A DNA stretch of 64,000 nucleotides from Parapedobacter luteus (lineage in GTDB: Bacteria; Bacteroidota; Bacteroidia; Sphingobacteriales; Sphingobacteriaceae): NCBI RefSeq assembly GCF_900168055.1, contig NZ_FUYS01000004.1:186001-250000 (forward strand), given 5' to 3'. The position numbers and the translations under genes are program-made. A model generated the notes under the pieces. It saw only the letters and a list, made by a program, of their open reading frames with translations. It had not been told where the DNA came from and searched no databases. Positions 31,669-47,829 of this stretch are shown here, piece after piece (position 1 is the stretch's first letter; the number at the start of each line of letters is the position of its first letter).

Positions 31669-32115
31669 CTACCTGTCCGTTTTCACCGCCTGCCTGGCAA
31701 GCAGCTTCCATTGCCCCCCGGCATGTTGCCAAACCGTCAATACATGCAAGCGGATTGTGGCACGCGGCTTACCGGCATCCTCCGTTTCGGCATCCAATTG
31801 ATGGCGTACAATCGCAACATCCCCTGAAGTGGTGACCTGCTGATCCGAAAGCCGGATGTCCAGGAAGTTGGAGGTACCGTCGACCAACGCCGATATAAAT
31901 TCCTCCTTGTTTTCTATTAAGCCGCTGGAATGCCCATAGGTGAGCGACGCAGCGGTCAACTGGTCCAGTGCCTCTGCATCGGCTTCGACCAACGCCTTTT
32001 TGAAAGCTTCGATTGTACCCGCTATGGATGGTTCCTGGCCCGAGTCCGGATTGCCTGGATTACAGGCAATCAATCCCACGACGGCCAATACAATCATTAA
32101 TTTATACCTTTTCAT
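31669..32115 (-). CDS. NTF2-like (DUF4440) lipoprotein, last gene of the SusCD operon
   Basis: 148 residues from the second of two adjacent ATGs (32118 or 32115). A lipoprotein signal ends at LIAC. The mature domain is an NTF2-like cone: IEAFKKALVEADAEALDQL (helix 1), TYGHSSGLIENKEEFISAL, then the strands AIVRHQLDAET, TIRLHVLTVWQHAGGQWKLLARQAV. DUF4440 domains bind or process small ligands. Its start overlaps the end of the aldolase gene by about 14 bases, so translation is coupled and it belongs to the utilisation operon. Its exact role is unknown. Confidence 0.88.
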   Translation of the reverse strand: MKRYKLMIVLAVVGLIACNPGNPDSGQEPSIAGTIEAFKKALVEADAEALDQLTAASLTYGHSSGLIENKEEFISALVDGTSNFLDIRLSDQQVTTSGDVAIVRHQLDAETEDAGKPRATIRLHVLTVWQHAGGQWKLLARQAVKTDR

Positions 32116-32881
32116 CATTCAGTTGTTTATACCATGTTATCATATCCTGATATCCCTTCCGCAATATAGCCAAATCCGAATCCACGGCCATGCAACGGTA
32201 TCCCATGGACACGAAGTTAGCAAAATCATCCCTATTGCGCAAAAGGATCCCAGCTTGCTTACCGTGCACTTCGGCCGCGCGTGCCACCTGCTCCAACGCC
32301 TCCTCAAAGCCCAGCTTATCTCCCGCAGGCTGATGAGCCAGTGCCAGCTTCAGATCCCCCGGTCCTACAAATAAGATATCCACGCCATCTACGGCCGCTA
32401 TCTCGTGTGCATGGCGTACCCCCGCTACATCCTCTATCTGAGCAAGAAATAGGGGTTTGACATCGCGCGGGTCTACCGGAGGCTCCAAGCCATACCGATA
32501 GGTACGCACCGTAGTCGAATAACCCCGGTGCCCCATAGGCGGATACCGCATCGCCGCCACACATTCAGCCGCCTGCCGCGCAGACGTGACGTGTGGCAGC
32601 ATAATGCCGTCAGCACCCCAGTCCAGCACCCGGGCTATTGTAGCGGCCTGCAGGTCGGGCACCCGGACAATCGCACAGGGCTCCCTGCCGCCGATGGTTC
32701 GCAAGAGCTCGGGAAGCTGCGCTTCGGGCGCGCTTCCATGTTCGAGATCGAGCAAAAGCCAGTCAAAAGGAAACTGCGCGGCGAGGTCCACGACGACCGG
32801 AGATCCGATGCTCAGCCAAGTCCCCAAGGTGACCGAGCCATCCAGAAATCGGTCATATTTTCTAACGTCGTATTTGTTCAT
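32102..32881 (-). CDS. HpcH/HpaI-family class II aldolase (2-keto-3-deoxy acid aldolase type)
   Basis: 259 residues. The HpcH/HpaI barrel features are DWLLLDLEHG, VRVPDLQ, GADGIMLPHVTSARQAAE, MGHRGYSTTVR, AQIEDVAGV and LFVGPGDLKLAL. These enzymes cleave 2-keto-3-deoxy sugar acids or 4-hydroxy-2-oxo acids to pyruvate plus an aldehyde, with a divalent metal held by Glu and Asp. There is no signal peptide, so it is cytosolic. Its ATG overlaps the kinase stop (ATGA, 32878-32881). It is thus translationally coupled to the kinase and transporter of the SusCD operon, implying that the imported product is finally split here. Confidence 0.92.
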   Translation of the reverse strand: MNKYDVRKYDRFLDGSVTLGTWLSIGSPVVVDLAAQFPFDWLLLDLEHGSAPEAQLPELLRTIGGREPCAIVRVPDLQAATIARVLDWGADGIMLPHVTSARQAAECVAAMRYPPMGHRGYSTTVRTYRYGLEPPVDPRDVKPLFLAQIEDVAGVRHAHEIAAVDGVDILFVGPGDLKLALAHQPAGDKLGFEEALEQVARAAEVHGKQAGILLRNRDDFANFVSMGYRCMAVDSDLAILRKGYQDMITWYKQLNDEKV

Positions 32882-33963
32882 AATGTGTCAATTGATTTAT
32901 CTCCCCGTAGGCCTTCGCAAGCACTGTCTATACGATCAAGCGTGAATTGTTTAAGGCCTTTATGTTTCGGATTGTTCAAGAAAAACTTGTCCGACTTTTC
33001 AAAATAATTTCCTTTCACCCGGATGACGGACTTGAAGATGATATTGCGCAGCAGGTGCAACCAGAACCGCTGCTCGAAATCAGGAGGCAGGGCTTTCACG
33101 CGCTGATAGCCAGCTATGGCCGATAGCACCACGTCGCCGGAATGGAAGCACCCCAATAAAGAAAGGTCATCAGTCGGATCGCCAGACACGGCATCGTCCC
33201 AGTCAATAACGGCGGTAATCTGATTATCATTTCCGAGAATATTCCATAGCGCGAGGTCCTTATGCACCAGACATCCGGTGTCCAACTGGAGCAAGGGTCT
33301 GAAGCCGTTTACCAACTCCTTTAATTCGGCAACCTTATATGCGCTGATGAATCCACTGGCACGAAGATACTCCAGATGCACATCCCAATTCAGGAAAAAG
33401 TACTGCTCATAAGCATCATGATACCCTTCCAATCTACCCACCGAATGCAGCACATCAGGATTGAAAAGCCCGTATTTTCCCGGTTGTATGGATTGCCAAA
33501 GCGCCACATACCTCCCAATTGTGCCCGCCACAGCCAGTAGGTCCAGCTCACCCCGCTTGTCTACCACATTCAAGTCGCTACTGTCTACGCAGTCCATCAC
33601 CTGAATGGCAAAAGGAACCACCGTGCGCGATACATCGGTGAGATAGATCAACGGGCAGGGAATGCCCTGCTGCCTTACCATCTCCATGACCTTCGACTCT
33701 ACAGCCATGTAGTTGTCACCCTCAGGGCCGTTTTCCAGCCGAACGAAATAGTCACCGTCCGGATAATGTGCCGTGAAGGTAATGTGATTGCCCTGCCCGT
33801 TTGCAGGTTCGATGTTGATAAGCCCATTCCTGAAATGACGGTTGAGGTAGTCACGCACCTGAATGGTGATTTCCGGTAGCGACGAACCGGCAGTACTGCG
33901 GGTATTCTCGGAAGCAAAAGCGCGGTCCGATTTCCAATAGTAAATATTCTTGCGCCCAGCCAT
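32878..33963 (-). CDS. APH/choline-kinase-fold phosphotransferase
   Basis: 361 residues of the aminoglycoside phosphotransferase/homoserine kinase fold. The N-lobe carries GNHITFTAHYPDGDYFVRLENG and AVESKVMEMVRQQGIPCPLIY. The catalytic loop is VHKDLALWNILG (HxDxxxxN) and the metal site is AVIDWDDAVSGDPTDD. Such enzymes phosphorylate small alcohols or sugars. Being cytosolic and wedged between the transporter (start ATG overlaps its TAA as TAATG) and an aldolase, it probably phosphorylates the imported substrate (inference). An antibiotic-resistance role is unlikely in this context. Confidence 0.9.
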   Translation of the reverse strand: MAGRKNIYYWKSDRAFASENTRSTAGSSLPEITIQVRDYLNRHFRNGLINIEPANGQGNHITFTAHYPDGDYFVRLENGPEGDNYMAVESKVMEMVRQQGIPCPLIYLTDVSRTVVPFAIQVMDCVDSSDLNVVDKRGELDLLAVAGTIGRYVALWQSIQPGKYGLFNPDVLHSVGRLEGYHDAYEQYFFLNWDVHLEYLRASGFISAYKVAELKELVNGFRPLLQLDTGCLVHKDLALWNILGNDNQITAVIDWDDAVSGDPTDDLSLLGCFHSGDVVLSAIAGYQRVKALPPDFEQRFWLHLLRNIIFKSVIRVKGNYFEKSDKFFLNNPKHKGLKQFTLDRIDSACEGLRGDKSIDTL

Positions 33964-35036
33964 TAATCTTTAGGAGTTTTGCGGTGCCACCATGAAGCTA
34001 AAATAGATCCCGTTACGTTCATCAACGGTCCAAAAATAGCTGCCGCCAGTCCGAGGGTTGCAATACGTCCCATTTCCTTGGACAGCCCAGACGCCAAGCC
34101 GCCGTTTTGCATCCCCACCTCGATTGCGATGGTCCGGCAATCCCGCTCTTTGAGCCGGAATAGCCGGGCCGTCCAATACCCCACGGTGTATCCCAGGACA
34201 TTATGAGTGAGGACCAGCATCACAAGCAGGGGCCCCACTGTCAGTAGGTTGTCGCGCCCCGCAGCCGCGATGACAACGATCGAAAATGCGATACCGAACA
34301 TGGACACATAGGGCATGACGGCAGCAAGCCATGGCGTTTTACCGTGGAACAACTGATTGAACAGCAAACCGATACCTACGGGTAAAATAACCATCTTCAG
34401 AATGTCCCACATCATTTTTAGGGTATTGATTTCGATGAATTCACCGGCAAGGGTCTTCATGAGCAACGGCGTGAACAGTGGCCCCAGCATGGTGGCTATC
34501 GACGTAATTGTGACGGACAGTGCCACATTCGCCTTGGCGAGGTAAGCGATCACGTTTGACGCCATGCCGCTAGGTACGCAGCCAATCAGCACGATACCTG
34601 CAGCTATTTCATTGGGCAACCCGCTCAGCTGAGCAATGGTATAACCCAAAACCGGCATAATGGCGAACTGACAGGTTACCCCGATCAGTACCGGGGTTGG
34701 CATTTTAAGCAAGCCGGCAAAATCCCTCAAACTCATCGTTGTACCCATGCCGAACATGATAAGCTGTATGGACGGCGTGATCAGCGTAGACAGGTCAAAA
34801 TTGCCCCACCGCGTAAAATACTGCGGGTAGCTGACTGCAGCTGCAAAGCATGTCAGGATAACCATCGTGTAGCTGAAGCCTTTGAGCGTTGGGTAGCCTT
34901 GGAAGGCTATGGAAAGGAAAATAAAAAAAAGAATCAACAGCGGTGGTATAAACGGAAGATTGCCCGTTAGTGCGGCTCCACCGCAAGCCACAACCGCCAC
35001 AAGAGCTGAATAAAGAAAAAATTTACTAATATGCAT
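33963..35036 (-). CDS. Bile acid:sodium symporter (BASS) family transporter
   Basis: 357 residues, about nine or ten membrane helices. Family blocks are LIMFGMGTTMSLRDFAGLLKMP, GCVPSGMASNVIAYLAKANVALSVT (the Na+ site region) and EVGMQNGGLASGL. BASS proteins move organic anions such as keto acids, pantothenate or bile acids with sodium. I start at ATG 35036; the upstream 35054 codon is TTG. The gene overlaps the end of the propeller-protein gene by 11 bases and the kinase start at its stop. An anionic or acid product of the outer enzymes is the natural cargo (inference). Confidence 0.92.
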   Translation of the reverse strand: MHISKFFLYSALVAVVACGGAALTGNLPFIPPLLILFFIFLSIAFQGYPTLKGFSYTMVILTCFAAAVSYPQYFTRWGNFDLSTLITPSIQLIMFGMGTTMSLRDFAGLLKMPTPVLIGVTCQFAIMPVLGYTIAQLSGLPNEIAAGIVLIGCVPSGMASNVIAYLAKANVALSVTITSIATMLGPLFTPLLMKTLAGEFIEINTLKMMWDILKMVILPVGIGLLFNQLFHGKTPWLAAVMPYVSMFGIAFSIVVIAAAGRDNLLTVGPLLVMLVLTHNVLGYTVGYWTARLFRLKERDCRTIAIEVGMQNGGLASGLSKEMGRIATLGLAAAIFGPLMNVTGSILASWWHRKTPKD

Positions 35037-36819
35037 ATTTACCTTTCGTATCAATTATCCCATCATATTCCGGTCCGCCCGCTCCTACGTAACCGTGGCT
35101 TGCTCCACTTTCGTCGGGGCTCACCCAAAAGGCGTAAAGCTTGCCGTTGGTCAAGTGAAAGCGGAATTTCACGGGTGTTCCAGCCAAAGATGACAAATCA
35201 TTACCGCCTTTCCATTCCACCTTGTACAACGTGCTGTCTGTTCGGATAGGCTCGCATGCCTTTGCAGCAAACTGCTTCACCACCCGATTACTTTCGTCGA
35301 GCACTTCTACCCGCAGCTCGCCTTCCGGGCAATCGACGTTGATAAACAGGTGTCTACCCTTGAAGACAACCGGGCGGGTTACCAACGTTCCGCCCCGCCT
35401 ATCCGCATCCATGGATGCAAAGCCATCCCGGCGCAGGGTAGCCATGCCGATACTGGCGCCGGTATACATCCCTGTCCTTCCATTGGGATCCACACCCGAG
35501 TACCCACAATAGGGAAACCATAATTTGTCGCCCATTACCAGGCAGACCCCCATTGTGCCATGCAGGTAGCCGCGATCCCAATCCCCTTCCTTGCGTGTCG
35601 CCTCAATAAACGGCCGGCGGTCCGGCCTGTGCCAATGAAAACCGTCGCGGCTGAATCCCAATTTCAACTCCGTGATTTTCGGAAACCTACCTTCTTCACA
35701 CACCCTATTATATGGCCCCAAATGGATATAAAATTCACCGAGCAAGATACTCTCATACGCCACGGCATTGAGGCTGTAAAGCTGAGCCGGGTTGTCTATC
35801 GCCGGATCGGGCGCATCCAGCGTATCGGCATTTACCCAATATACGGCATTGTCAAAGGCCGCGCCCTTAATAAATTCCTCGCTTTCGGAATAATATCGGG
35901 CCCGCCCCCTTTTTGTGCTCTTTTTAATGCTGAATGTCCATACATTACGGAAGGGATTATGGAAAAATGAGGTATAGTCTTCGGCATCGGCCGTATACAC
36001 GCCTGTTGACCAAACCTTGCCATCAGCAGCGGTATGTAACGTATGCCTGGGACCGTCAGCCCGCTTTTCGAAGTACGTTTTCCAATCGCCATCGACCCAG
36101 CGCTCGATGATTGCCTTATACCGCTGCATGCTATCCTGTGCGTTCACATCCAGCCATATTGCATTGTCCCCTCCAGCCATCAACGAACCTGGAGGCAGAA
36201 TCAGGTTCCCGCCCGCAAGCCCCAGATCGGGTCGCTCCCATGAAACCAGATCCGTACTCGTAGCCATCGCCAGGGCACCGCGCCATCCCGCCGTATAGAA
36301 CATCTTAAAGCGCTTGTCGGCCGGGTCGTAGAACACCCCTCCGTGTCCCAGGTATGTCACCGCACTGTTGTCATGGTATGTTGCCAGCTCCTGCTCCGTC
36401 TGGGGGAAGAATACCGGGTTGCCCTCGTATTTTTCCGGCCGATGGAAAACCCGGTCCAGGTCGGTCCGCTCAATCAGGAAATCATCTACAAACAGCTGCC
36501 TTCCCACATCAATAGGAATGACCTCAGGCGGGTTTTCAAGATAAGGCACACGCATCGGCCCCAAATCAGCGGGGTCCTGATCGCGCGGGGGCCACACTTC
36601 AGGCAACCGGATTCCATTGTACAACAAACGCGAGGTGTCGCCGTGCGCTATCGCCAAGGTATCGCGCCGTGCTGCCAAATGGTCCGTTTGAGCCATTGCG
36701 TCATCCGCAGCCGACGACATAGCTAGTCCAAAAACACCATAACAAACCGCCTTCCGGACCCTGCACACGGCCAATGGCCCAGCCCATCTACTCAAAGTCA
36801 AAAAAAACGTAAATCTCAT
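35026..36819 (-). CDS. Secreted five-bladed-propeller putative glycoside-active protein
   Basis: 597 residues. A long n-region with hydrophobic segment (AVCYGVFGLAMSSAADDAMA) suggests export; the exact cleavage is unclear. Residues ~95-480 resemble the GH43/GH32-like five-bladed propeller proteins abundant in Planctomycetes and Bacteroidota: VGRQLFVDDFLIERTDLDRVFHRP is the characteristic opening, and LATYHDNSAVTYLGHGGVFYDP, FKMFYTAGW and ATSTDLVSWERPDLGL mark blades. A C-terminal beta-sandwich (about 490-597) follows (LFINVDCPEGELRVEVLDES). No validated catalytic triad can be named from the sequence. It sits between the BNR protein and the transporter of the SusCD operon. Confidence 0.82.
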   Translation of the reverse strand: MRFTFFLTLSRWAGPLAVCRVRKAVCYGVFGLAMSSAADDAMAQTDHLAARRDTLAIAHGDTSRLLYNGIRLPEVWPPRDQDPADLGPMRVPYLENPPEVIPIDVGRQLFVDDFLIERTDLDRVFHRPEKYEGNPVFFPQTEQELATYHDNSAVTYLGHGGVFYDPADKRFKMFYTAGWRGALAMATSTDLVSWERPDLGLAGGNLILPPGSLMAGGDNAIWLDVNAQDSMQRYKAIIERWVDGDWKTYFEKRADGPRHTLHTAADGKVWSTGVYTADAEDYTSFFHNPFRNVWTFSIKKSTKRGRARYYSESEEFIKGAAFDNAVYWVNADTLDAPDPAIDNPAQLYSLNAVAYESILLGEFYIHLGPYNRVCEEGRFPKITELKLGFSRDGFHWHRPDRRPFIEATRKEGDWDRGYLHGTMGVCLVMGDKLWFPYCGYSGVDPNGRTGMYTGASIGMATLRRDGFASMDADRRGGTLVTRPVVFKGRHLFINVDCPEGELRVEVLDESNRVVKQFAAKACEPIRTDSTLYKVEWKGGNDLSSLAGTPVKFRFHLTNGKLYAFWVSPDESGASHGYVGAGGPEYDGIIDTKGKYAY

Positions 36820-36837: not shown

Positions 36838-38139
36838 TCATTTATTCGATATGTCGCTTGCAACGGACCCCGAAGGCGGAGGCAATTTATCCAGCCCCCG
36901 AGGTCGGCTGATCAGTATCCTCGAACCGGACTCCGGACTTTGGAAGCGTCCTTCCAGTATGTCGGCCTCCGTGAAACGTGCCATCAGTATTTCGCCGTCC
37001 AGCTCACGGTTCCGGTCGTAGGCTATATATATGGTACCATCAGAAGCCTGGAAGCCATCCGGGTAGGATACTCCCCGCCGCTCGTCGATCATTAAGCCTC
37101 CCTTCCAGCTTTTACCATCGTCTTCTGAAAGATAAGCGGTCAGTTTAGAACGGAACGCCGTGCGCTCATCCAGCGCGCCGTGCCGTACCATTAGCAGACG
37201 GCCCGATTGCAGCCGCCGGATGAAATGGCGGGAGCTGATATGTGGCATGTATCGCTGCGGTGCAGACCAGGTCCTACCCTTATCGGACGAGACGCTCTGC
37301 CAGATACCGTCACCTGTCCTGGCGGTCATCCACAGCGTGCCGTCTCGGCGCTCGATGACCTGATGTTCATCGAACTTTGGTTTGGGAAAACGTACGCCTC
37401 CCCTGCGCTGCCATGTCTGGCCCCGATCGTTTGAAACGAAGACGTTGGCCATTCGGAATGTGTCCAGCTCGGGGAACGCTCTCTTATAAACCTCATCCTT
37501 TATTTTGCCGCGGTCCCATAGCGACACCGGAAGCATCCATGTGCCATCGGAGAGGACTACCGGTTTGTTGAGCGCGCAGCCGTGCCAGAGCCGTTTTGGC
37601 GCTGACCACCGTGGCTCATCGCTGTCAGGGTTTTCGCACACTGTGTACCACAACCCGGCCCGGCCATCGAAGTACGTCATGGACTGATCGAAAAACAACC
37701 ACAGATTCCCTTGAGGATCCGTCCACAGGTTTCCCACTATCGTCCGTCTGGCATCACTGAGGCTTGGGTCGTGCGGATCGATCACCACCCTTGGCTCAGA
37801 CCATGTCTGTCCATTATCGTCACTGGTATTCAATACAAAAAAGGCATCTTCATTGTCACCCCCGCCCACCCAACAGGCCCAAATACGCCCATTTGGCGTG
37901 CGTTCGATGCCAATGGTCATGCCGTAGTCTAGTCGGTCATAACCATATGTAGGAAGCGGGTTTGTATTGACGATGGGCGTTTCCATGGCTGGCTCTGCAC
38001 GCTCTTCTACGTTGATCTGATTTCCCTGTGCGCGACTAGCTACATTGAAATATACGATAAACGACAATGTCGCCACCGCAATGCCTATGCACTTAACTAA
38101 AACCGACTTGCAATTCATATATCCGCTAATTTTGCTCAA
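36838..38139 (-). CDS. BNR/Asp-box sialidase-fold protein A, exported
   Basis: 433 residues with an N-terminal signal (VATLSFIVYFNVASRAQG). The six-bladed sialidase-like propeller shows several Asp boxes: SDDNGQTW, SNDRGQTW, SSDKGRTW and SEDDGKSW. The RIP motif and arginine triad context of true sialidases are not apparent, so a different glycan-cleaving or lyase activity is more likely. The end, YIAYDRNRELDGEILMARF, is closely matched by the protein at 45174. It is part of the SusCD operon, 18 bases before the propeller gene. Met8 is another possible start. Confidence 0.88.
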   Translation of the reverse strand: MSKISGYMNCKSVLVKCIGIAVATLSFIVYFNVASRAQGNQINVEERAEPAMETPIVNTNPLPTYGYDRLDYGMTIGIERTPNGRIWACWVGGGDNEDAFFVLNTSDDNGQTWSEPRVVIDPHDPSLSDARRTIVGNLWTDPQGNLWLFFDQSMTYFDGRAGLWYTVCENPDSDEPRWSAPKRLWHGCALNKPVVLSDGTWMLPVSLWDRGKIKDEVYKRAFPELDTFRMANVFVSNDRGQTWQRRGGVRFPKPKFDEHQVIERRDGTLWMTARTGDGIWQSVSSDKGRTWSAPQRYMPHISSRHFIRRLQSGRLLMVRHGALDERTAFRSKLTAYLSEDDGKSWKGGLMIDERRGVSYPDGFQASDGTIYIAYDRNRELDGEILMARFTEADILEGRFQSPESGSRILISRPRGLDKLPPPSGSVASDISNK

Positions 38140-38151
38140 TATCTAGCGGCA

Positions 38152-38910
38152 CTAATCCGCCTTTGTAATCTTGACATGACCCAGAAAAAACCGACCTACC
38201 TGTGTTGGATCAGACTTAATTTCTATCTGTGTCTCCTTAGTGGCATTCAATACCCGGAATTCCCTTGTTGTCCAACTATCTCTGGTGGTCACCTCCAGCT
38301 GGCTGACCGATGATATACCGCCATTAGCAACGCTGACGTACAACGTCTGCGAAGAACCACCCCAAATGGCCAAATCGACCGACACATTAATATTTACGCT
38401 TCCTTCGCCAATCATGTCCAGCGGTGGCGTTCGGATGTATGCATCCCTGGATGACTCTGTACCAATTTTCAGATAGCCGGGGCGTTCATACACTTTCGAG
38501 CCTTCCCACCCACTGATGCCGCGCAACTCCTTATAAGCCTCGGATACAAGCGCAAAAAAATCCGGGCAACCGTCCGTGTTGATACCGCATTCAGCAACCG
38601 GTTTGCTTTCGTCAATAATGTACCTATTGTCGTCATCCCGAGTAAATTCGCCCTTAACACCCGGCTGTTGGTTAATATAATCTCCTCCCCAAATCATTTT
38701 CTCGAAGTCCTCCTCAAAATAAACGGATCCGATGGTATCATCTTCATCGTCGTCTTTATGCTCCTCATCTTTGGCACAGCTCCATAATGAAGTCACAAAA
38801 AGGATAAGCGCAAAAGACCTCAACATCGTCCTCCAATTTCCCGTGCCATATTGTTTTGCAGTTAGCAGATTCGCTGTTGTAACGCGGTTTTTATTTATTC
38901 CGTTATTCAT
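38152..38910 (-). CDS. Surface lipoprotein of the SusCD operon, unknown fold
   Basis: 252 residues from the first ATG; Met29 (38826) is an alternative that would leave a compact signal MLRSFALILFVTSLWSC. After the lipobox cysteine comes KDEEHKDDDEDD, an acidic stretch of the kind that directs Bacteroidota lipoproteins to the cell surface. The C-terminal ~110 residues are beta-rich (VNINVSVDLAIWGG, SQTLYVSVANGGI, TTREFRVLNATKETQIEIK), like a jelly-roll glycan-binding domain. Position behind SusD and between two BNR genes fits a surface glycan-binding protein. I cannot name the family. Confidence 0.78.
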   Translation of the reverse strand: MNNGINKNRVTTANLLTAKQYGTGNWRTMLRSFALILFVTSLWSCAKDEEHKDDDEDDTIGSVYFEEDFEKMIWGGDYINQQPGVKGEFTRDDDNRYIIDESKPVAECGINTDGCPDFFALVSEAYKELRGISGWEGSKVYERPGYLKIGTESSRDAYIRTPPLDMIGEGSVNINVSVDLAIWGGSSQTLYVSVANGGISSVSQLEVTTRDSWTTREFRVLNATKETQIEIKSDPTQVGRFFLGHVKITKAD

Positions 38911-38935: not shown

Positions 38936-40237
38936 TTATTCGAGTTCGAGTGCGCTCAATGGCACACGGGTAATCCCCATATCTTCTTTGCCAATGGAAT
39001 ACATGGTGTATAACCAGCCATCGCGCACGATGGAGCTGGAGTAGGCATATCCAGGGTTCCGTCCGCCTATACCGGAAAATCGATGTCCTGTAGGAGATCC
39101 TGTCCGAAGGGCATATACCCGGTCGAAGGTATAGCCGTCTTTGCTGATGGAAATGGTCATGGGGTCGCGATCCAAATACAGGGCTTGATCATATCGGTTG
39201 ACGTTTTGGTTACCAATGAGCAATACGGTTCCGTCTTCCAAGGTTAATGCTTGTGCACGGCTAGGCGAGTCCGGGATATCGGTTGGATAGGGTGCCGCCC
39301 ATCCACCGGTTCCATCGTTAAAACTCACATACATCCTATTGGTGTGCACGGGGTTATTGGCATGCCCCCAGTCCCTCAGCATGAGCACCAAACCGCCATC
39401 CTTGGCCCGGTAGATAAAACTTTCGATCAAACTTTGGCCGTCAACCGCTGTTCGCTGTACACCCCAGCTTGCATTGGCCCACCAACTGATTTGGTCGTTT
39501 TCACGATACCATCGATATAGGCGCTCGCCGATAGGCGAAGGAGCAGTTGGCGCATCGTCGCCTTCCATGAATACGGGAAGCGATCCGTTATTGGGCAGGC
39601 TTTGGACCAAGAATGGCTCGCCCAACGTTCCTTCCTCGCTCACTGCCCGAGCGATGGGATATACCCCCGCACCGTGCACATACGTGATTGCATAAAGGAC
39701 ATCATCGATGATCGCCCAACAATCAGGCTTGAGATGTATGCCGTTTTCCGAACGCGGCAACACCGGGCCCGGAGCAGGAAACAACTCTTCGGCATCCGTC
39801 CAATTTCCCCATTCATCAGCGTGGGCATAGAGCACCCGCTGCCCGGGTGCATCTTCGCCAAATTCATGATTGCCCCACATGGCATAAAACCGACCGTTGT
39901 GGTGAATCAGACAGGCATAGTGATTGTATGCACCATCTTCACGTACCGAAGGCTGCCACACCACATCATGCTCCGCGTCCGAAAGTATCGGAAACCCTGC
40001 CCCATTTCGGATGTCAACCGTGGCCATGGGTGCCTTCCACATCGGAACCACCGGCGTGCCCTTGCTGGTAAACTGATCGGTTTCAACATCCCGCGTGCCC
40101 ACTTGGATTTTAATGGTTCGGTCGTCTTCTTCCTTAGGTGCATCAGCTTGGCCAGCTTTACCACATCCACAGGACTGTAACAGAATGAAAAGCCCTACAG
40201 TCCAAAAGATATGGTGTTGTTTTGTTATCCGTGTCAT
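38936..40237 (-). CDS. BNR-4-type propeller lipoprotein
   Basis: 433 residues. The signal ends with lipobox LLQSC, followed by GCGKAGQADAPKEEDDRT, so it is probably anchored in the outer membrane and possibly surface-exposed. The mature protein is a BNR/propeller protein: WQPSVREDGAYNHYACLIHHNGRFYAMWGNHE, DGGLVLMLRDWG, RMYVSFNDGTGGWAAPYPT and SSSIVRDGWLYTMYSIGKED. It differs from the other two BNR proteins here and lacks clear Asp boxes. This family occurs with rhamnose- and uronate-linked glycan loci (general impression, not verified). It lies directly after SusD. Confidence 0.83.
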   Translation of the reverse strand: MTRITKQHHIFWTVGLFILLQSCGCGKAGQADAPKEEDDRTIKIQVGTRDVETDQFTSKGTPVVPMWKAPMATVDIRNGAGFPILSDAEHDVVWQPSVREDGAYNHYACLIHHNGRFYAMWGNHEFGEDAPGQRVLYAHADEWGNWTDAEELFPAPGPVLPRSENGIHLKPDCWAIIDDVLYAITYVHGAGVYPIARAVSEEGTLGEPFLVQSLPNNGSLPVFMEGDDAPTAPSPIGERLYRWYRENDQISWWANASWGVQRTAVDGQSLIESFIYRAKDGGLVLMLRDWGHANNPVHTNRMYVSFNDGTGGWAAPYPTDIPDSPSRAQALTLEDGTVLLIGNQNVNRYDQALYLDRDPMTISISKDGYTFDRVYALRTGSPTGHRFSGIGGRNPGYAYSSSIVRDGWLYTMYSIGKEDMGITRVPLSALELE

Positions 40238-40285: not shown

Positions 40286-41926
40286 TCAGTAGCCCGGATT
40301 CTGTTCCAGCCTTCTTCCGATATTGGCATCTATGGCCGATTGCGGAATGGGCCACCATTGGTGATGATCCTGGATTGAATTTCTGGTGAGCTCCCTTATG
40401 CTATATTGCCTTACCCGGTCTACCAACCGGCCCATACGCACCAATGTCCGCCGCCGGGGTTCTTCCGTAATCAGTTCCCGCGCACGTTCGTCGAGGATGA
40501 AGTCTTCCGTCACATCAGCGGCATCTATCAACGTTGCGTTCGCACGCCCCCTCACCACATTAATGTCGGTTGCCGCATGTTCTCGATCACCCATCCTGAA
40601 ATAAGCTTCCGCGCGCAACAAATACGTCTCAGCAAGGCGGTATACGATAAAATCCTGATAAGTGCGGCCGGACCAGGAAGTGCTGGTATGGGTCAGCGTA
40701 CCCACATCGCCTTCGATCTTGCGCGGATAGGGATAAATATTCTGCATGGTATCGATTTCTGATGTCTTCGGTTCTACAACCTGCCCGAAGTAAGCCGATG
40801 AGGGGTTGGTGTACCGGAGCTCCCTCCGCATGTTATGCACGGAATTGCGCATGTCGTTGTTCCAATCGCTGGCCCATACGTCGTAGAGGAAATAAGGCGT
40901 GGGCCGGACTTGTCCGGTACCTCTGCCCAAGCTATCGACGACGACCATGCCCGACCGACCATCCGGGTCAGTAAGCCGCTCATACCAAGGTCCCCAGTTC
41001 CGCAGCCGATTATTTCCGTTGCTTCCCCCCTGGCCGCCTATGGTCATGTCTTCAAATTGCCAAACGTAAATAGATTCCAGGTTACCTGAACTTCTGTTTT
41101 GATTACCGTCCTTGAACAAATCCGAAAACGGGTCACCGGGTTCATTCAGCTTAGTACCAAACCGCTCGGTCATCAGTTGGTAATGACCCGAATTGATGAC
41201 CCGATCAGCACTTGCCACCGCATTTTCGTATTGGCCCAGACTGATATAGACTTCCGTCAGCAGGTGGTCCGCAGCAGCCTTAACGATCCGGCCTTCCTTT
41301 TCGACAGCGACCGGCAGCCACTGGGAAGCAAACTCGAGGTCTTCCCGTGCAAAGTCCAGTACTTCCTCGCGTGAATTGCGCACAAAGTCCGTTTTTGGGC
41401 TGGTATAGATGGTGTCGACAATCGGTACACCACCATAAAGATTAGCCAGCATATTATGCGTGTACGCCCTGAAAAATTTAGCTTCTGCGATAATGGCATT
41501 TTTGCGCTCCTCACTGCTCCATATATCAGCCAGTTCGGGATTTTCGGCATATACAATAATCGTATTGGCCTGGAGCAGCATATCCTGATAAGCCCAGTTC
41601 CACACCCATTCGATGTGGTTTTCGGTGGGCGTTTGCAAGGTATTGTAGTTGTTGCTGCTGACCGAACTGTTTCCAAACGAGGCGACGTCAGTGGAAGTCT
41701 GCATGATGTAAAAGTAACGCGACGCATCGCGAGCCGCCATTTCATCGCGCGCCGCCTTATGCAGCGCAGTCATATAGGCTTCAAAGCCCCTTTCAGACGT
41801 CAAGATGCCCACGGTGCTGTAATCCGATAATGGCACCTCTTCGAGGAAATCCGAAGTGCATGAGTGATGGGCCATTAGCAATACCGCTAAAACCATCACA
41901 TTACCTATCTTCTTAAGCGTTTTCAT
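40286..41926 (-). CDS. SusD/RagB-family nutrient-binding outer-membrane lipoprotein
   Basis: 546 residues. Lipobox ending in AHHSC, then the SusD hallmark TSDFLEEVPLSDY. TPR-like helices include EARAFRAYTHNMLANLYGGVPI-type sequence (AEAKFFRAYTHNMLANLYGG) and QDFIVYRLAETYLLRAEAYFRMG, and the usual end RRLEQNPGY. SusD caps the SusC channel and captures the glycan. It follows SusC by 34 bases. Its sequence gives no clue to the ligand. Confidence 0.96.
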   Translation of the reverse strand: MKTLKKIGNVMVLAVLLMAHHSCTSDFLEEVPLSDYSTVGILTSERGFEAYMTALHKAARDEMAARDASRYFYIMQTSTDVASFGNSSVSSNNYNTLQTPTENHIEWVWNWAYQDMLLQANTIIVYAENPELADIWSSEERKNAIIAEAKFFRAYTHNMLANLYGGVPIVDTIYTSPKTDFVRNSREEVLDFAREDLEFASQWLPVAVEKEGRIVKAAADHLLTEVYISLGQYENAVASADRVINSGHYQLMTERFGTKLNEPGDPFSDLFKDGNQNRSSGNLESIYVWQFEDMTIGGQGGSNGNNRLRNWGPWYERLTDPDGRSGMVVVDSLGRGTGQVRPTPYFLYDVWASDWNNDMRNSVHNMRRELRYTNPSSAYFGQVVEPKTSEIDTMQNIYPYPRKIEGDVGTLTHTSTSWSGRTYQDFIVYRLAETYLLRAEAYFRMGDREHAATDINVVRGRANATLIDAADVTEDFILDERARELITEEPRRRTLVRMGRLVDRVRQYSIRELTRNSIQDHHQWWPIPQSAIDANIGRRLEQNPGY

Positions 41927-41960: not shown

Positions 41961-44960
41961 TTAAAAGCCCAGTCTTAAACCCAGTGTATATGATCTGGCA
42001 ATCGGATACCGATCGGTAGAGACCGATTCCGGATTTGTGCCCAACCAATCGGTAAAGGTCAACAGGTTTTTGCCGCTCAAAAACACACCGAGCTGGGTCA
42101 ACCGATGTTTCGACAGGAATTCCGATGGAAACCGGTAAGCCAATGATACATCCTGTACGCGGATGAAATTGCGGCTCAAATACCAGCTATGCCCGAGGAC
42201 GCTTCGCCGGTATTCGAGCGAAGGCCTCGTATTGGAGCGGTTTTCCGGGGTCCACCAACCTCCATCGAACATATTACCGGGCCGTATCGGATCCAAGCTA
42301 TTACTATAGAAGTCCAAATCGTTGAACGTCGCAATCCAACCCTGCATCGCATTGATAAAGATCGACAGATCAAAGTTGCCGTACCTAAAATTGTTGGTTA
42401 TGCCCCAACGGAATTTAGGTTGGCCTCCCTGTCCGATAATGGTTCGGTCATTATCGGCTTCGACGCGGCCATCTCCATTAAGGTCCCGGAACCGAGCGAA
42501 GCCCGGTTCGTATCCCGCAGGAAGCTCATCGCCCTCCTGGTAGATACCATCAAACACGTAGTCGTAATATACGTTGATCGGCTGGCCAATAAACCACCGA
42601 TTCCCCAGATCATCATCTTCCCGGCCGTCGCCGTCGGCATCCACGCCGTAGAGGCTCACAATTTTATTTTTATTACGAGAAAGAACAAAATTGGAGGTCC
42701 ATTCAAACTTTTCCTTTTTGATATTTACCGTGTTCAAGGTCAATTCGATCCCTCTGTTATTTACCTTGCCCAGATTGGTCCAGATGGAGGAATATCCAGT
42801 CATTATCGGTATTGACCGCTCGACCAGTAGGTCACGGGTATCCATGTTGTACAGTTCGACAGTGCCACCGATCCGACTATTGAAGAGCTCAAAATCAACC
42901 GCCAAATTAGACGTGTAAGTCGTCTCCCACTTGAGGTTTTCATTGGATATATTTGATGGGTATATACCCAACGCCGATTCTGGCCCATAAACGTAACGGG
43001 TGATGTTGGCCAAGCTCAACGATTGATAAGGCGAAATCGCTTGGTTGCCCACAGCACCATAGGAAACTCTCAGCTTGAGCAAATCCACATAGCTGCTGTT
43101 TTGCAGAAATGACTCGTCGGATGCGATCCACGCGAATGCTGCAGACGGGAATGTTGCATATTTATTGTTAGCCGCGAATACGGAGCTACCATCCCGCCTT
43201 GCCGTCAAGGTAACGAGGTACCGGTCTTTCAGCCGGTAATTGATCCTTGCCATCGACGAGATGCCTGACACCTTTTGAGCAGAAGAAGATACCGTTTGAA
43301 GTTCGCCGACATTAAGCCGATTCCATCCAAATGCATCAAACTCCAGCTGATCTGCACTCGCTGTCGTGGTCTCCTGGTTTTCGCGGTTTGCGCCGTACAT
43401 CAACGTGACGTCAAACGCATGGTTGTCTCCCAATTTGAACTTGTAATCCAAGATATTTTCCAGCACCCAGTCCTGCGCTTTCCAGTTCCGCTTAGAGGCA
43501 GATGTCGTATTGGCTTCGGGCAGATGGATGTCCTGAGCGGTAGCTTGGTAATCGCGAATCCAACGATAATTCGCCGAATAGTTGACCCGAAAGCTCAACC
43601 CATCAATCCAAGGAACGTCAACCAATGTAAAGAAATTGGCAAAGAGATTATTCCTGTAATTGTCGTTTTCCGAAAGGTAATTGTTTCGCATGGGATTTGC
43701 AGATACGCCTTGGTCCTCCGGTACCGTAAATTGCGTGGGGGATCCGTCCTCACGATACCACGTTCCATAGGGACTTTGTCTCGAAGCCAATGAAATCGAT
43801 GCAGGTACACCGGATTGGTCATTTTCTGAAAACATCGTATTGGTACCGATGGTCAACCAATCTGTAATCTTATTTTCAAGATTCACGCGGAAAGCCATTC
43901 TACGGAGGTTGTCATCGTGTACCAACCCATTTTCGCGCGACATGGAAGCGGAGAGGTAATAGTTCGTGTGGTTGGTATTGCCGGCAAGGCTCACATCTGT
44001 TGAAAAGATCCTACCCTGTTGAGCGATCATGTCATATGGATCTACAATACGGCCATTCCGGTAGTTTTCGGCTTCTGTCAGCGTCAAATATGTGGCGACA
44101 TTGTCTGGATCAAAAGGTACGCCCCTGAGCCTGCGGATTTCCATTGACTTTTCGAGATAGCGCTCCGGCGTTAGTAGCTGCATCCTAGCCGCCCAGTCGG
44201 ACAGGCCGTAAAACGTATTCAGGTTAATGTTTGGTTTTTCGGTTTTGCCCCGCTTAGACGTGATCAGGATCACGCCATTCGCTGCTCGTGAGCCGTAGAT
44301 AGCCGCCGCACTGGCGTCTTTCAGGATCTCCATGGACTCAATATCATTGGGATTGATATCGATCATACTTCCGTTAAAAAAAATACCGTCAAGAATGATC
44401 AATGGATTGTTCCCGGCACTCAAGGACCTGGGGCCACGTACTAGAATGGTTCCATTCTGTCCAGGCCGGCCATTGTCTGTAAACTGCACGCCGGCTACCC
44501 GGCCCCGCAGTGCCTGCGTCACGTTGGTATTAGGCAGGTTCTCAGTTTCCGCCATATCCACCTTGCTCACCGACCCGGTAACGTTGCGGCGCGATTGGGT
44601 GCCATAGCCCACGACCACCACTTCGTCTAAGGATGAAGTGCTGGCCATAAGCAGCACATGAATTGTTTCATTCTGCCCTACAGCCACTTCTTGTGTGGTG
44701 TAACCCACATTCCTGAATACCAAAGTGTCGCCGCTGTTGGCTTGGATGCGGTATTGGCCGGTTGCGTCGGTGACTGTACGTGCAACACCTTGCTTCACTT
44801 CCACGGATACCCCCTCCAAAGGCCCGTCGCTATCGCTCACCACGCCCGACACCGTTTGTTGTCCCTGTGCAAAAGTGGCAGCTATTGGCAAGGTCAAGGC
44901 CAGACAGAGGCAAAATACCTGTTGGCTTCTTAATAGCAATAAAAATTTACTCATCATCAT
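41961..44960 (-). CDS. SusC/RagA-family TonB-linked outer-membrane transporter
   Basis: 999 residues. Signal peptide to about residue 31 (ALTLPIAATFAQG). The carboxypeptidase-like regulatory domain spans ~34-110 (TVSGVVSDSDGPLEGVSVEV). The TonB-box/plug transition is SLDEVVVVGYGTQSRRNVTGSVS, followed by plug blocks GVQFTDNGRPGQNGTILVRG and KDASAAAIYGSRAANGVILITSKRG. The beta-barrel ends in SYTLGLRLGF with terminal Phe. It imports oligosaccharides with TonB energy. Three ATGs in a row leave the exact start open. It heads the ten-gene operon and has the shared regulatory module at 45016-45082. Confidence 0.97.
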   Translation of the reverse strand: MMMSKFLLLLRSQQVFCLCLALTLPIAATFAQGQQTVSGVVSDSDGPLEGVSVEVKQGVARTVTDATGQYRIQANSGDTLVFRNVGYTTQEVAVGQNETIHVLLMASTSSLDEVVVVGYGTQSRRNVTGSVSKVDMAETENLPNTNVTQALRGRVAGVQFTDNGRPGQNGTILVRGPRSLSAGNNPLIILDGIFFNGSMIDINPNDIESMEILKDASAAAIYGSRAANGVILITSKRGKTEKPNINLNTFYGLSDWAARMQLLTPERYLEKSMEIRRLRGVPFDPDNVATYLTLTEAENYRNGRIVDPYDMIAQQGRIFSTDVSLAGNTNHTNYYLSASMSRENGLVHDDNLRRMAFRVNLENKITDWLTIGTNTMFSENDQSGVPASISLASRQSPYGTWYREDGSPTQFTVPEDQGVSANPMRNNYLSENDNYRNNLFANFFTLVDVPWIDGLSFRVNYSANYRWIRDYQATAQDIHLPEANTTSASKRNWKAQDWVLENILDYKFKLGDNHAFDVTLMYGANRENQETTTASADQLEFDAFGWNRLNVGELQTVSSSAQKVSGISSMARINYRLKDRYLVTLTARRDGSSVFAANNKYATFPSAAFAWIASDESFLQNSSYVDLLKLRVSYGAVGNQAISPYQSLSLANITRYVYGPESALGIYPSNISNENLKWETTYTSNLAVDFELFNSRIGGTVELYNMDTRDLLVERSIPIMTGYSSIWTNLGKVNNRGIELTLNTVNIKKEKFEWTSNFVLSRNKNKIVSLYGVDADGDGREDDDLGNRWFIGQPINVYYDYVFDGIYQEGDELPAGYEPGFARFRDLNGDGRVEADNDRTIIGQGGQPKFRWGITNNFRYGNFDLSIFINAMQGWIATFNDLDFYSNSLDPIRPGNMFDGGWWTPENRSNTRPSLEYRRSVLGHSWYLSRNFIRVQDVSLAYRFPSEFLSKHRLTQLGVFLSGKNLLTFTDWLGTNPESVSTDRYPIARSYTLGLRLGF

Positions 44961-45015: not shown

Positions 45016-45082
45016 CAAATATCCGGCAAAGGCCGGTAAATGCTGTTCAATCATTTATCAACTCTGTATACTCGTTTACCAT
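45016..45082 (-). promoter_or_regulatory. Shared regulatory module, copy 1 (SusC operon)
   Basis: On the minus strand: GTATAC (45066-45071), 15 bases, TTG (45048-45050, in TTGAACAG), 24 bases, GATATTTG (45016-45023). It aligns without gaps to 46715-46781 at about 47 of 67 positions. The module ends 55 bases before the SusC start. GATATTTG is one base from TAnnTTTG and is probably the -7 element; GTATAC looks like an operator core. Confidence 0.75.
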
Positions 45083-45173
45083 TTCGCCAAACGCTGGGAT
45101 GTAGCTGATGCACGAATCAAAAACAACATCCTATAGACCAATATGTTGCATACCACCAAAGCTAGCGCCAAGG

Positions 45174-46697
45174 TCAGTCATCCGCTTTACTGATCAACTG
45201 CTTTTGTTTGGCTTGTTTACCGACAAACCGTCCCTGCTTGATATCTTCCTCGGTAAATGCAGCCATCAAAATCTCTTTCTCTCCCCCACGGGATCTATCG
45301 TAGCACACATAGATCAGGCCGTCATCATCCTGTACCACATCCGGATACGAAACGTTGTTACGCTCGTCCAGCAACAACTCATATGGCCATGTCTGCCCAT
45401 CGTCCAAGGAAAGGCGAGCCGTCATATTCTTCCTTGCCTTACGCGTAGGATCGTTGTTATACACAAGAAGAAGGTTGCCGGACTGCAGCCGTCCGATATA
45501 TAGCCGTGAATTAGCTGAGGCCAATTCTTCAACTTCCTGCAGGGAAGTCCAGCTTTTTCCTTGATCATCGGAAATACTTTCCTGCACATTTCGTTGCAGC
45601 ATCCAGATATTTCCGTTAGTCAACTGCACGCACATGTGTTCATAAAAATTGCTGATAGGCTTGTTCAGCGGCCCGCCCTGCAATGTCCAGTGCTCACCTT
45701 CATCATCGGAAATGTAAACTGCACTTTGGTGGTTAATCCAATCATAGGACGGCAATAACCACTTTCCCGAAGCCAACACAATGGGTTTGTTCCGGGTCAG
45801 CCCATCGCATAAACGCCTTGGAGACGTCCAGGTAGGTTTGTCTGAGGTTGGATTATCAATACGGACAGCCCACGTCCCCCATATGCCGTCAAAACCCTTT
45901 GGCCCGGTATTCTGCACCCAAAAAATCCATAATCGCCCTTGGGGATCTTTCCAAAGCTGTGGGTCCATAACCCGCACCGCACTATTGGGATGAGTGATTA
46001 CCATGGCGGGATCTACCCACTCTTTGCCGTCATCGCTGTACGATATGATGCCGTAATTGCCTGCATCCGGCTCACGAGTGCCGCCCGAAAACCATGCAGC
46101 CCACAGCCGCGTTCCCGTTTTTGTGATAGATGGACATCCCTGCCATTTCCGTGTGCTTCTGCCGTATTCAATACCCGGTAACCAGCTGACCTGAGCCGGT
46201 TCAGTGATAGATGGCAACGGTCGCGCATCAAAGAATGCTACCGCCCAGCCTTCGTATCGGACATCTTTCAGGCGGAAATTATCGTACACTATGTCCTTCT
46301 TGAATATACCAATTTGAACCTCTTGGCCGCTAAAAAGCGTAAACGACGGATGATCCAGTTTAATAAAACCCTGTTCATGTAGAACCGGCTCCTGTGATCC
46401 CGGCTCTCCCGCAAGCGGAGTAACGACGAAGAGGCTACCTGTAGTAACCGGAACAATACGGTTTCTCCCTGCCATTGAGCCAATAATGTAGCCTGACCCC
46501 CGCAGGAAACGGGGCAATTGCTTAAATACATAACGCTCATCGGCAAATATGGGAGCTCCTTTTCGTGCTATACCCACTTTATCCGCTTTTTCAGGAACAA
46601 CGGCTGCAAGGACCTTGGTACTGTCGGGAAATTGTGCACGGACATCGGTCCCGAAGCAAATTATCAACGCGATAGTAATGATAGATTTATAAAACAT
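45174..46697 (-). CDS. BNR/Asp-box sialidase-fold protein B, exported
   Basis: 507 residues, signal peptide MFYKSIITIALIICFGTDVRAQ. An N-terminal ~150-residue beta domain (SGQEVQIGIFKKDIVYDNFRL region) precedes the propeller. Asp boxes or variants are seen in SYSDDGKEW, SDDEGEHW, SDDQGKSW and SLDDGQTW. The C-terminal VSYPDVVQDDDGLIYVCYDR, then ILMAAFTEEDIKQGRF, is clearly related to the protein at 36838, so the two are paralogues. No RIP motif is evident, so it is probably not a true sialidase. It lies upstream of the SusC promoter with its own copy of the regulatory module. Confidence 0.88.
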   Translation of the reverse strand: MFYKSIITIALIICFGTDVRAQFPDSTKVLAAVVPEKADKVGIARKGAPIFADERYVFKQLPRFLRGSGYIIGSMAGRNRIVPVTTGSLFVVTPLAGEPGSQEPVLHEQGFIKLDHPSFTLFSGQEVQIGIFKKDIVYDNFRLKDVRYEGWAVAFFDARPLPSITEPAQVSWLPGIEYGRSTRKWQGCPSITKTGTRLWAAWFSGGTREPDAGNYGIISYSDDGKEWVDPAMVITHPNSAVRVMDPQLWKDPQGRLWIFWVQNTGPKGFDGIWGTWAVRIDNPTSDKPTWTSPRRLCDGLTRNKPIVLASGKWLLPSYDWINHQSAVYISDDEGEHWTLQGGPLNKPISNFYEHMCVQLTNGNIWMLQRNVQESISDDQGKSWTSLQEVEELASANSRLYIGRLQSGNLLLVYNNDPTRKARKNMTARLSLDDGQTWPYELLLDERNNVSYPDVVQDDDGLIYVCYDRSRGGEKEILMAAFTEEDIKQGRFVGKQAKQKQLISKADD

Positions 46698-46714
46698 AGG
46701 TTTCTCAATTCGTC

Positions 46715-46781
46715 CAAATATCCCTTGATCAATCCTAAATTCTGTTCAACCATTTAGCTATTATGTATACTAATTTATCAT
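46715..46781 (-). promoter_or_regulatory. Shared regulatory module, copy 2 (BNR protein B gene)
   Basis: On the minus strand: GTATAC (46765-46770), 15 bases, TTG (46747-46749), 24 bases, GATATTTG (46715-46722), with identical spacing to copy 1. It ends 17 bases before the gene's ATG. The most divergent part is the 12 bases just beside the -7 element, which supports functional conservation of the rest. Confidence 0.75.
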
Positions 46782-46886: not shown

Positions 46887-46918
46887 TTTGTATTTGTATA
46901 CACTTTTCCTTAAACTTG
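46887..46918 (+). promoter_or_regulatory. Promoter of the AraC gene with an embedded GTATAC
   Basis: TTTG at 46887-46890, 20 bases, TAAACTTG at 46911-46918 (one mismatch from TAnnTTTG). GTATAC at 46896-46901 lies between the two elements, followed by N3-TTT as in both module copies, a natural site for autoregulation. Confidence 0.55.
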
Positions 46919-46944: not shown

Positions 46945-47829
46945 ATGAAGCCCCATTTTCATTTGGTACCAAGGACCACAGCATACCCCTATCTTTCGCG
47001 ACAGCACACCCTACCTAACTTTGGTACAGTATGGCATTATCATCCTGAATTGGAGTTACATTACATCGTCCGGGGCGAAGGGGTTCGTTTTGTCGGCGAC
47101 AACATCAGCAATTTCGATGCGGGGGAGTTATTACTGTTAGGCGAAAACCTTCCCCATATGTGGCGATGTAACAAGCGGTATTTCCAGGGAAACCCCAATA
47201 TTACGGCGGAGGCCGTCGTCGTGCAGTTCCTCGCCGATTTCATGGGAAGAGATTTCCTGCGGAAGCCAGAAGCAGCGGCCATCCACGCCCTGTATGAACG
47301 CGCCCGGTACGGGCTGGTCATCCACGGCAGGACCAAAAAACAGGTGGTAACCCTAATGCGGGAGTCCGTTCAAGCTGAAGGCCTGTCCCGGCTGATGCTG
47401 ATATTCAACATGCTGCACGTATTGGCCGACAGTAAAGAGGTAACGCAAATCGCGACAGGCTGGACGACACACCAGGCGAATAAGGACGAGACCGATCGGA
47501 TTAATAAGGTATACCATTATATCCTGTCCAATTACCGCAACGAAATCACGTTAGACGAGATTGCTACAGTGGCCCATTTGAGTGTCACATCATTTTGCCG
47601 TTACTTCAAGATGATGACCAAAAAGACGTTTCGCGATTTCCTCATCGAAGTGCGCATTAGCCACGCTAAGCGTATGCTTATTGAAGACAGCATATCTACC
47701 ACGGAAGCCATCTGCTTTGAGTGCGGATTCAACAACCGTTCTAACTTTTTCCGGCATTTCAAACGCATCACCGGCTGCACACCGGTTGAATACCGGCATC
47801 GGTATTTGTACGAAAACGTATTTGTGTAG
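46945..47829 (+). CDS. AraC-family regulator adjacent to the SusCD locus
   Basis: 294 residues. The N-terminal cupin sensor has TVWHYHPELELHYIVRGEGVRFVGD and GELLLLGENLPHMW, as in sugar- and rhamnose-responsive AraC proteins. The C-terminal DNA-binding part is LDEIATVAHLSVTSFCRYFK, TTEAICFECGFNNRSNFFRHF and CTPVEYR. It is divergent from the BNR B gene across 247 bases that hold one copy of the shared module and its own promoter. It is the only regulator near the locus, since no HTCS or ECF sigma/anti-sigma pair is present. So it is the likely controller (inference). Confidence 0.92.
   Translation: MKPHFHLVPRTTAYPYLSRQHTLPNFGTVWHYHPELELHYIVRGEGVRFVGDNISNFDAGELLLLGENLPHMWRCNKRYFQGNPNITAEAVVVQFLADFMGRDFLRKPEAAAIHALYERARYGLVIHGRTKKQVVTLMRESVQAEGLSRLMLIFNMLHVLADSKEVTQIATGWTTHQANKDETDRINKVYHYILSNYRNEITLDEIATVAHLSVTSFCRYFKMMTKKTFRDFLIEVRISHAKRMLIEDSISTTEAICFECGFNNRSNFFRHFKRITGCTPVEYRHRYLYENVFV

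Follow-up and report, generated by a model that had tools for sequence, protein, structure and literature searches.

Gene content of the locus and its two 67-bp modules

The locus lies in a 64-kb window (the whole stretch of DNA analysed here) of a 4.83-Mb genome (G000). It comprises two presumed target units on the minus strand: the gene of a BNR-repeat protein, BNR1, on its own, and a run of genes from SusC to an aldolase that ends at 32102. SusC (44960-41961) and BNR1 (46697-45174) are separated by a gap of 213 bases, and the araC gene (46945-47829) is situated beyond BNR1 in divergent orientation. The genes are as follows.

46945..47829, plus strand: AraC-family regulator of 294 aa, the predicted binder (Pfam HTH_18 2.5e-21; HTH_AraC and AraC_binding above cut-off)
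45174..46697, minus strand: BNR1, BNR-repeat protein, first target unit (Pfam BNR_2 2.9e-38)
41961..44960, minus strand: SusC-like TonB-dependent receptor, heading the second target unit (TIGR04056 6.7e-235)
40286..41926, minus strand: SusD-like lipoprotein (Pfam SusD_RagB)
38936-40237, minus strand: BNR protein, first after SusD (Pfam BNR_2)
38152-38910, minus strand: small protein between two BNR genes (no Pfam family)
36838-38139, minus strand: BNR protein, second after SusD (Pfam BNR_2)
35026..36819, minus strand: 597-aa protein (no Pfam or NCBIfam family)
32102..35054, minus strand: SBF symporter, APH-type phosphotransferase and HpcH/HpaI aldolase (Pfam); presumed operon end

The intergenic gaps measure 12-48 bases from SusC to the gene of the 597-aa protein, with short overlaps further downstream; this spacing suggests that the nine genes from SusC to the HpcH/HpaI aldolase form a single operon. 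With a SusC-SusD pair, a regulator and putative glycan-active enzymes (the BNR proteins), the locus has the constituents of a polysaccharide utilization locus. BNR1 gave a weak match to the structure of a GH33 candidate sialidase. As to the substrate, the operon's HpcH/HpaI aldolase and, at a distant site in P. composti (see below), a GH78 rhamnosidase were noted as leads only. The regulator combines an N-terminal AraC_binding domain with a C-terminal AraC HTH (Cupin_2 fell below the Pfam cut-off), and Pfam detected no kinase or receiver domain in its 294 aa, which sets it apart from the hybrid two-component regulators (HTCS), where both are fused to the AraC-type domain. A sigma-70 promoter scan returned no matches, as expected for this phylum, and a terminator scan found two candidates against 2.1 by chance.

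The DNA in front of the two target units contains a pair of similar stretches.

45016..45082, minus strand: 67-bp candidate promoter/operator module of the SusC operon, 47/67 identical to the BNR1 copy
46715..46781, minus strand: 67-bp candidate promoter/operator module of BNR1, 47/67 identical to the SusC copy

A sequence-only reading of the window had singled out these stretches for their likeness, and the counts bear it out: exactly 47 of the 67 bases are identical in an ungapped alignment, whereas the best ungapped 67-mer match between dinucleotide-shuffled upstream regions reached at most 37/67 in 400 trials (mean 32.1, sd 1.4). No third place in the 64-kb window is identical to either module at 36 or more of the 67 positions. 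The equal spacings of GTATAC, TTG and GATATTTG (15 and 24 bases) that had been reported are present in both copies, and so is the uneven conservation: identity amounts to 13/17 and 15/17 in the two half-sites described below and 8/8 in GATATTTG, as opposed to 7/19 in the spacer before GATATTTG. Moreover, the genome scan proposed in that reading placed the exact pattern GTATAC-N15-TTG-N24-GATATTTG at precisely two positions in the 4.83-Mb genome, both at this locus (reversed control, 0); the pattern is not widespread elsewhere. The tandem part alone, with up to three mismatches, likewise occurs genome-wide only here. GTATAC by itself is weak evidence. It is found 20 times in the 64-kb window, with 9.2 occurrences expected from dinucleotide shuffles. 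Two features had been overlooked: both copies contain a 21-bp direct repeat, and the promoter of araC has a third element of related sequence.

Internal anatomy of the modules

The core of each module consists of two 17-bp half-sites in direct orientation, with starts 21 bp apart, followed by a -7-like element.

45064..45080, minus strand: distal AraC-type half-site GGTAAACGAGTATACAG, SusC copy (21-bp direct repeat)
45043..45059, minus strand: proximal half-site GATAAATGATTGAACAG, SusC copy (21-bp direct repeat), holding the TTG of the sequence-only reading
45016..45023, minus strand: -7-like element GATATTTG of the SusC operon, TTTG invariant at its offset in 13/13 sites
46763..46779, minus strand: distal half-site GATAAATTAGTATACAT, BNR1 copy (21-bp direct repeat)
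46742..46758, minus strand: proximal half-site GCTAAATGGTTGAACAG, BNR1 copy (21-bp direct repeat)
46715..46722, minus strand: -7-like element GATATTTG of BNR1, TTTG at a fixed offset

GTATAC turns out to be the end of half-site 1, and TTG is part of half-site 2. From the end of half-site 2 to the end of TTTG the distance is 27 bp, the predicted -7 octamer beginning 19 bp after half-site 2. In an alignment of 13 sites from the six orthologue genomes (found with related patterns and not independent), the invariant columns are G3, A6, A7, ATACA at 14-18, G24, A27, A28, AAC at 36-38 and TTTG at 64-67; among these, G3/G24, A6/A27, A7/A28, A16/A37 and C17/C38 form pairs exactly 21 apart. A weighted profile test on the 13 sites gave 21 as the best among offsets 8-49, and column shuffles equalled the profile score in 0/5000 cases at offset 21 and in 39/5000 at any offset. 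The same offset was also best in 9 and 30 further sites, a partly circular result since these sites were chosen with a tandem matrix. The repeat signal in raw identity is weak because AT-rich half-sites match easily: it was equalled in 112/2000 shuffles and, in a second test, in 205/5000, and when the four closest rows were left out 806/5000 shuffles reached the repeat score. As raw-identity shuffles are too weak to decide, the weighted profile test and further loci were used instead. The arrangement is that of a tandem operator—similar direct half-sites about two helical turns apart, the proximal one covering the -33 region in 13/13 sites as counted from a predicted -7.

The modules might alternatively be the operator of another regulator that recognizes, for example, a palindrome, TAAAT-N11-ATTTA, whose arms can be seen by eye in the middle of both window copies. 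This appears extremely improbable: the exact right arm can be made out in 3/13 sites (by eye, alignment A1), whereas conservation follows the columns of the direct repeat.

The consensus of the Bacteroidota primary sigma factor, as given in a portion of PMC7366714, is TTTG at -33 and TAnnTTTG at -7, and the same portion reports that -33 could not be identified in F. johnsoniae. Across the 13 sites, the octamer carries TTTG in 13/13 and the A in 12/13; the canonical first T of TAnnTTTG is found in 0/13, the first base being G or C in all of them. TTG at N17-23 before the octamer (the range used in the sequence-only reading) occurs in 0/13, 0/9 and 0/30 sites, i.e., 0/52 overall, a count to be read with the caveat that half-site letters fill part of the N17-23 stretch, which alone disfavours TTG. 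The predicted leader of BNR1 is short, with 17 nt from TTTG to ATG.

These counts bear on the earlier proposal of an ordinary primary-sigma promoter, with TTG as -33 and GATATTTG as -7 at a spacing of 24, plus GTATAC as an operator. While that spacing does hold in both copies, the position in question carries TTG in only 4/13 sites and GTG, ATG, AAG or TTA in 9/13, whereas the AAC of the half-site and the TTTG of the -7 element are invariant; we consider this reading highly improbable. Its TTG lies inside the proximal half-site and is not a -33 box, so the argument for activator dependence from an overlong spacer falls. The conclusion itself is still supported, and fits the actual anatomy better—no -33 element, and a proximal half-site in its place. 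A further alternative is that AraC uses the same sites as a repressor rather than as an activator. AraC proteins are capable of both roles (compare the pertinent part of PMC6018408), and a half-site-like element is present in the araC promoter region. However, the tandem site lies upstream of the -7 element and not over it, and with no TTG at -33 spacing (0/52) and no first T in the octamer (0/13) the promoter looks weak without help. The geometry thus suggests activation, and repression through these sites is unlikely.

Conservation beside orthologous and more distant AraC regulators

Orthologues of the regulator, with at least 74% identity, were found in P. composti (G002, 95%), Sphingobacterium sp. 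SGG-5 (G150, 80%), S. haloxyli (G130, 78%), G006 (77%) and P. pyrenivorans (G004, 74%). All five loci carry the tandem site, each time with TTTG at an unchanged position, in one to three copies per locus; orthologous promoters therefore keep the motif, which the sequence-only reading had named as a check, and its claim that the SusC operon and the upstream BNR gene share a regulatory module gains support. The sites are located before SusC and BNR1 in the main locus of P. composti, before SusC and a BNR gene in SGG-5, and before a CstA-type gene, a FAD oxidoreductase gene and SusC in S. haloxyli. In G006 and P. pyrenivorans, a single site lies between directly divergent araC and SusC genes, with no BNR1 between them. 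When a matrix was built from six sites without the -7 region, all seven newly accepted sites (scores 17.9-30.3) had TTTG at the predicted base; two of these seven places had already been seen in an earlier pattern search, likewise without -7. Matches scoring 19.4 (G375), 16.4 (L094) and 14.4 (L090) were not accepted; none has TTTG at the predicted place. The one in G375, a genome without an orthologue, outscores the weakest accepted site (19.4 vs 17.9).

The single-site loci make a duplication in the window lineage plausible, and the two modules could then be a mere leftover of it: BNR1 would have entered between araC and SusC along with a copy of the promoter, and there would be no co-regulation at present. 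We regard this as very unlikely, since the two copies have kept their half-sites and -7 element but not their spacer, both copies are also kept in P. composti, and S. haloxyli has separate copies before three units. Duplication may be the origin of the arrangement, and the pattern of conservation makes the sites look as if kept by selection.

On a separate contig of P. composti (L092, 6593-6762) there are two more tandem sites, back to back and divergent, possibly a remote part of the regulon. Behind one of them comes the gene for a GH78 alpha-L-rhamnosidase and then that for a 63% relative of the 597-aa protein of the window. The gene behind the other (L092, 6749-8610) is spread over three overlapping frames and looks frameshifted or misassembled. 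The listed ORF starts fall within these sites, and translation therefore probably begins further downstream. In S. haloxyli, the FAD oxidoreductases at L091 4234-6240 and 12545-14560 are nearly identical by eye, and only the first is directly behind a tandem site.

The third element of the locus lies in the araC promoter.

46895..46909, minus strand: element GGAAAAGTGTATACA, resembling a single half-site; a GTGTATACA-centred element is present in 6/6 orthologous loci

The GTGTATACA-centred element is positioned 129-132 bp from the tandem site in all six orthologous loci. The first G, invariant in the half-sites, is missing from GGAAAAGTGTATACA. The element may serve autoregulation or looping.

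Specificity was examined across 399 genomes of the family, where the tandem pattern with at most one mismatch gave 10 matches in 7 genomes. The six exact matches, in 4 genomes, all lie beside an AraC orthologue; those with one mismatch comprise one at the S. haloxyli locus, one at a distant P. composti site and two in genomes without an orthologue, and the SGG-5 sites were missed by the pattern. The matches in the latter two genomes (G375 and G396, one mismatch each) probably arose by chance, because TTTG is absent at its expected place in G375 and a reversed control pattern matched in 3/399 genomes. In addition, a model built from the sites' sequence recovered 13 sites, each with E no higher than 7e-10 and each in one of the 6 orthologue genomes among 20 searched; these 13 are its own training set, and matches come from the best 150 candidates scored per genome. 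In the 14 genomes without an orthologue, the best match had E 0.025, so that at E 0.01 the model and the cognate AraC-family gene co-occur in 6/6 orthologue genomes and 0/14 others. The SusC-copy module gave E 2.9e-14 with sequence model R1, of which it is itself a training site. A 27-bp partial model match recurs with equal score at seven places in G023, of the same family, and is probably an unrelated repeated element.

To extend the analysis, 80 of 421 AraC relatives were kept; L125, L126, L128 and L203 were excluded since their genomes had already been used, leaving 11 + 65 test loci. The 11 loci (64-70% identity) belong to Chitinophagaceae, Sphingobacteriales, Dyadobacter, Runella, Larkinella, Pedobacter and Pollutibacter, and none was used in training; the 65 have 51-57% identity. 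Several test loci are closely related, so the following counts are not independent events. With the -7 region masked, the best match to half-site matrices from the 13 sites was taken within 700 bp upstream of araC. TTTG stood at the predicted base in 9/11 loci of the first group (L133 and L137 failed) and in 30/65 of the second, the best upstream match in the other 35/65 lacking TTTG there. By comparison, two controls, the opposite strand and the araC gene, each gave 0/76, repeat periods of 17-20 or 22-25 instead of 21 gave at most 3/11 and 2/65, and permuted matrix columns gave means of 0.14/11 and 1.07/65 (worst cases 4/11 and 16/65). The full model matched L127, L130, L131, L190 and L136 at full length with E of at most 2.2e-4, L137 at a second location with a partial match (2.9e-4) and L129 only at 0.14; L132, L133, L134 and L135, i.e., 4/11 distant loci, were not reported at E up to 5.

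The 51-57% loci had been intended as negative controls, a use that was dropped because the same geometry is present there with other half-site letters. The tandem sites of these relatives (L138-L204) follow the consensus ATGaTAAtATccTAtA.TA. A matrix built from the 30 sites of this group retrieves both window modules, which rank first and second in the 64 kb (16.5 and 14.2; next, -1.6). Although the 30 sites share none with the 13, they were chosen via the first tandem matrix and the TTTG ending; the cross-check thus supports a shared design but is not fully independent, and its -7 columns are circular. The 30-site matrix gave 92 matches above the reversed-matrix maximum in 60/65 loci, its own training sites included, and 24 of those loci hold two to four matches each. 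Their distance to the next ORF has a median of 61, vs 63 for random positions, in a weak test that allowed any start codon. The genes behind some sites look, by eye, like those of SSS-type symporters and SusC. For the 19 matches in the orthologue and 64-70% loci, the median distance to the next ORF is 42, and that ORF is SusC-like in 11/19 according to a rough text pattern.

Among 55 AraC proteins compared, the 6 orthologues are identical in the first recognition-helix region (LSVTSFCRYFK) and the second (NRSNFFRHF). The 43 relatives of 49-57% carry NVSNFYRHF in 41 cases and exactly LSVTSFCRYFK in 38, and in six proteins at 36-39% both stretches differ. The change in the second helix (arginine in the 6 orthologues, valine in the 41 relatives) accompanies the other half-site letters of the 51-57% group—a correlation only, with helices (49-57%) and site consensus (51-57%) drawn from different lists of relatives. 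On balance, we favour the view that a Bacteroidota clade of soluble AraC activators shares one rigid promoter design (half-sites 21 bp apart, the proximal one replacing -33, at a fixed distance to a weakened -7) in which the half-site letters drift with the second helix between subfamilies and the spacing stays constant.

Proposed mechanism and relation to known systems

Each copy contains the direct repeat, its geometry is fixed, the site is conserved beside AraC orthologues and the -33 element is absent. We infer from this that the two modules are very probably AraC-activated promoters, with the neighbouring AraC binding both of them, replacing the -33 contact and co-inducing both units; binding by this protein, activation, the inducer and the start sites are all predictions of this model. 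Two directly repeated half-sites with a period of 21 bp, equal to two helical turns, would seat an AraC-type dimer on a single face of the helix. The proximal half-site would then occupy the -33 place of the primary sigma factor, in front of a -7 element that ends in TTTG at a fixed distance downstream. The AraC protein encoded at 46945 would sense a product formed when the imported glycan is degraded and bind both copies, contacting RNA polymerase in lieu of -33, as AraC does at araBAD. Occupation of both sites would then induce BNR1 together with the SusC-to-aldolase operon and its sugar importer, i.e., co-regulate them locally.

The two copies would thereby define a local regulon and predict base changes that abolish induction. 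They offer a clean case for how an activator replaces the poorly defined -33 of Bacteroidota promoters. Additionally, the spacing rule 17-4-17-19-octamer, with TTTG as the last four bases, led to sites next to related regulators from several families; if the clade-wide design is true, whole regulons could be read from sequence across several families.

In the E. coli araI1-araI2 pair, the half-sites have 17+4 spacing and overlap the -35 element. The resemblance to araBAD extends to paired half-sites beside the RNA polymerase site and an extra half-site near the araC promoter (described in part of PMC6018408). However, the half-site sequence and the sigma factor differ from those of E. coli AraC, and the distance to the extra element is about 130 bp here, vs about 200 for araO2 looping. 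A similar layout is seen with Vibrio XylRA, which has an AraC-type DNA-binding domain: according to a section of PMC12125979, two AT-rich direct repeats lie upstream of several operons of one xylan locus, and the motif was bound in gel shifts. XylRA differs in its LacI-type sensor domain and in its proteobacterial host and promoters.

Within the Bacteroidota, Bacteroides SusR is likewise an activator of SusC operons with repeated sites, but its repeats are 67 or 77 bp apart (both in a section of PMC3878776), as compared with 21 bp here, which places the present sites outside the SusR type. CgrA (ZGAL_3159) of the Zobellia carrageenan regulon is also an AraC-family protein acting positively on a Bacteroidota polysaccharide locus (PMC5698469, in part). 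It has a different substrate and gene set, and the passages of PMC5698469 consulted describe no binding site. A survey of open-access papers, mostly by their listed entries, yielded no description of binding sites for soluble AraC regulators at glycan loci of Sphingobacteriaceae.

A close parallel is offered by the HTCS regulators of Bacteroides, with predicted direct repeats that average 21 bp and lie before SusC/SusD operons, several operons, distant ones included, making up a regulon (as set out in a portion of PMC3878776). In contrast to these, the regulator here is a soluble AraC that carries an AraC_binding domain at its N-terminus, and the sites occur in Sphingobacteriaceae, Chitinophagaceae and Cytophagales. 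The constant spacing to -7 and the absent -33 were measured here; the portion of PMC3878776 consulted says nothing of where the repeats lie with respect to -7. Paired AraC-type sites of about 21 bp are thus already predicted for the Bacteroides hybrid regulators, and the present sites extend that kind.
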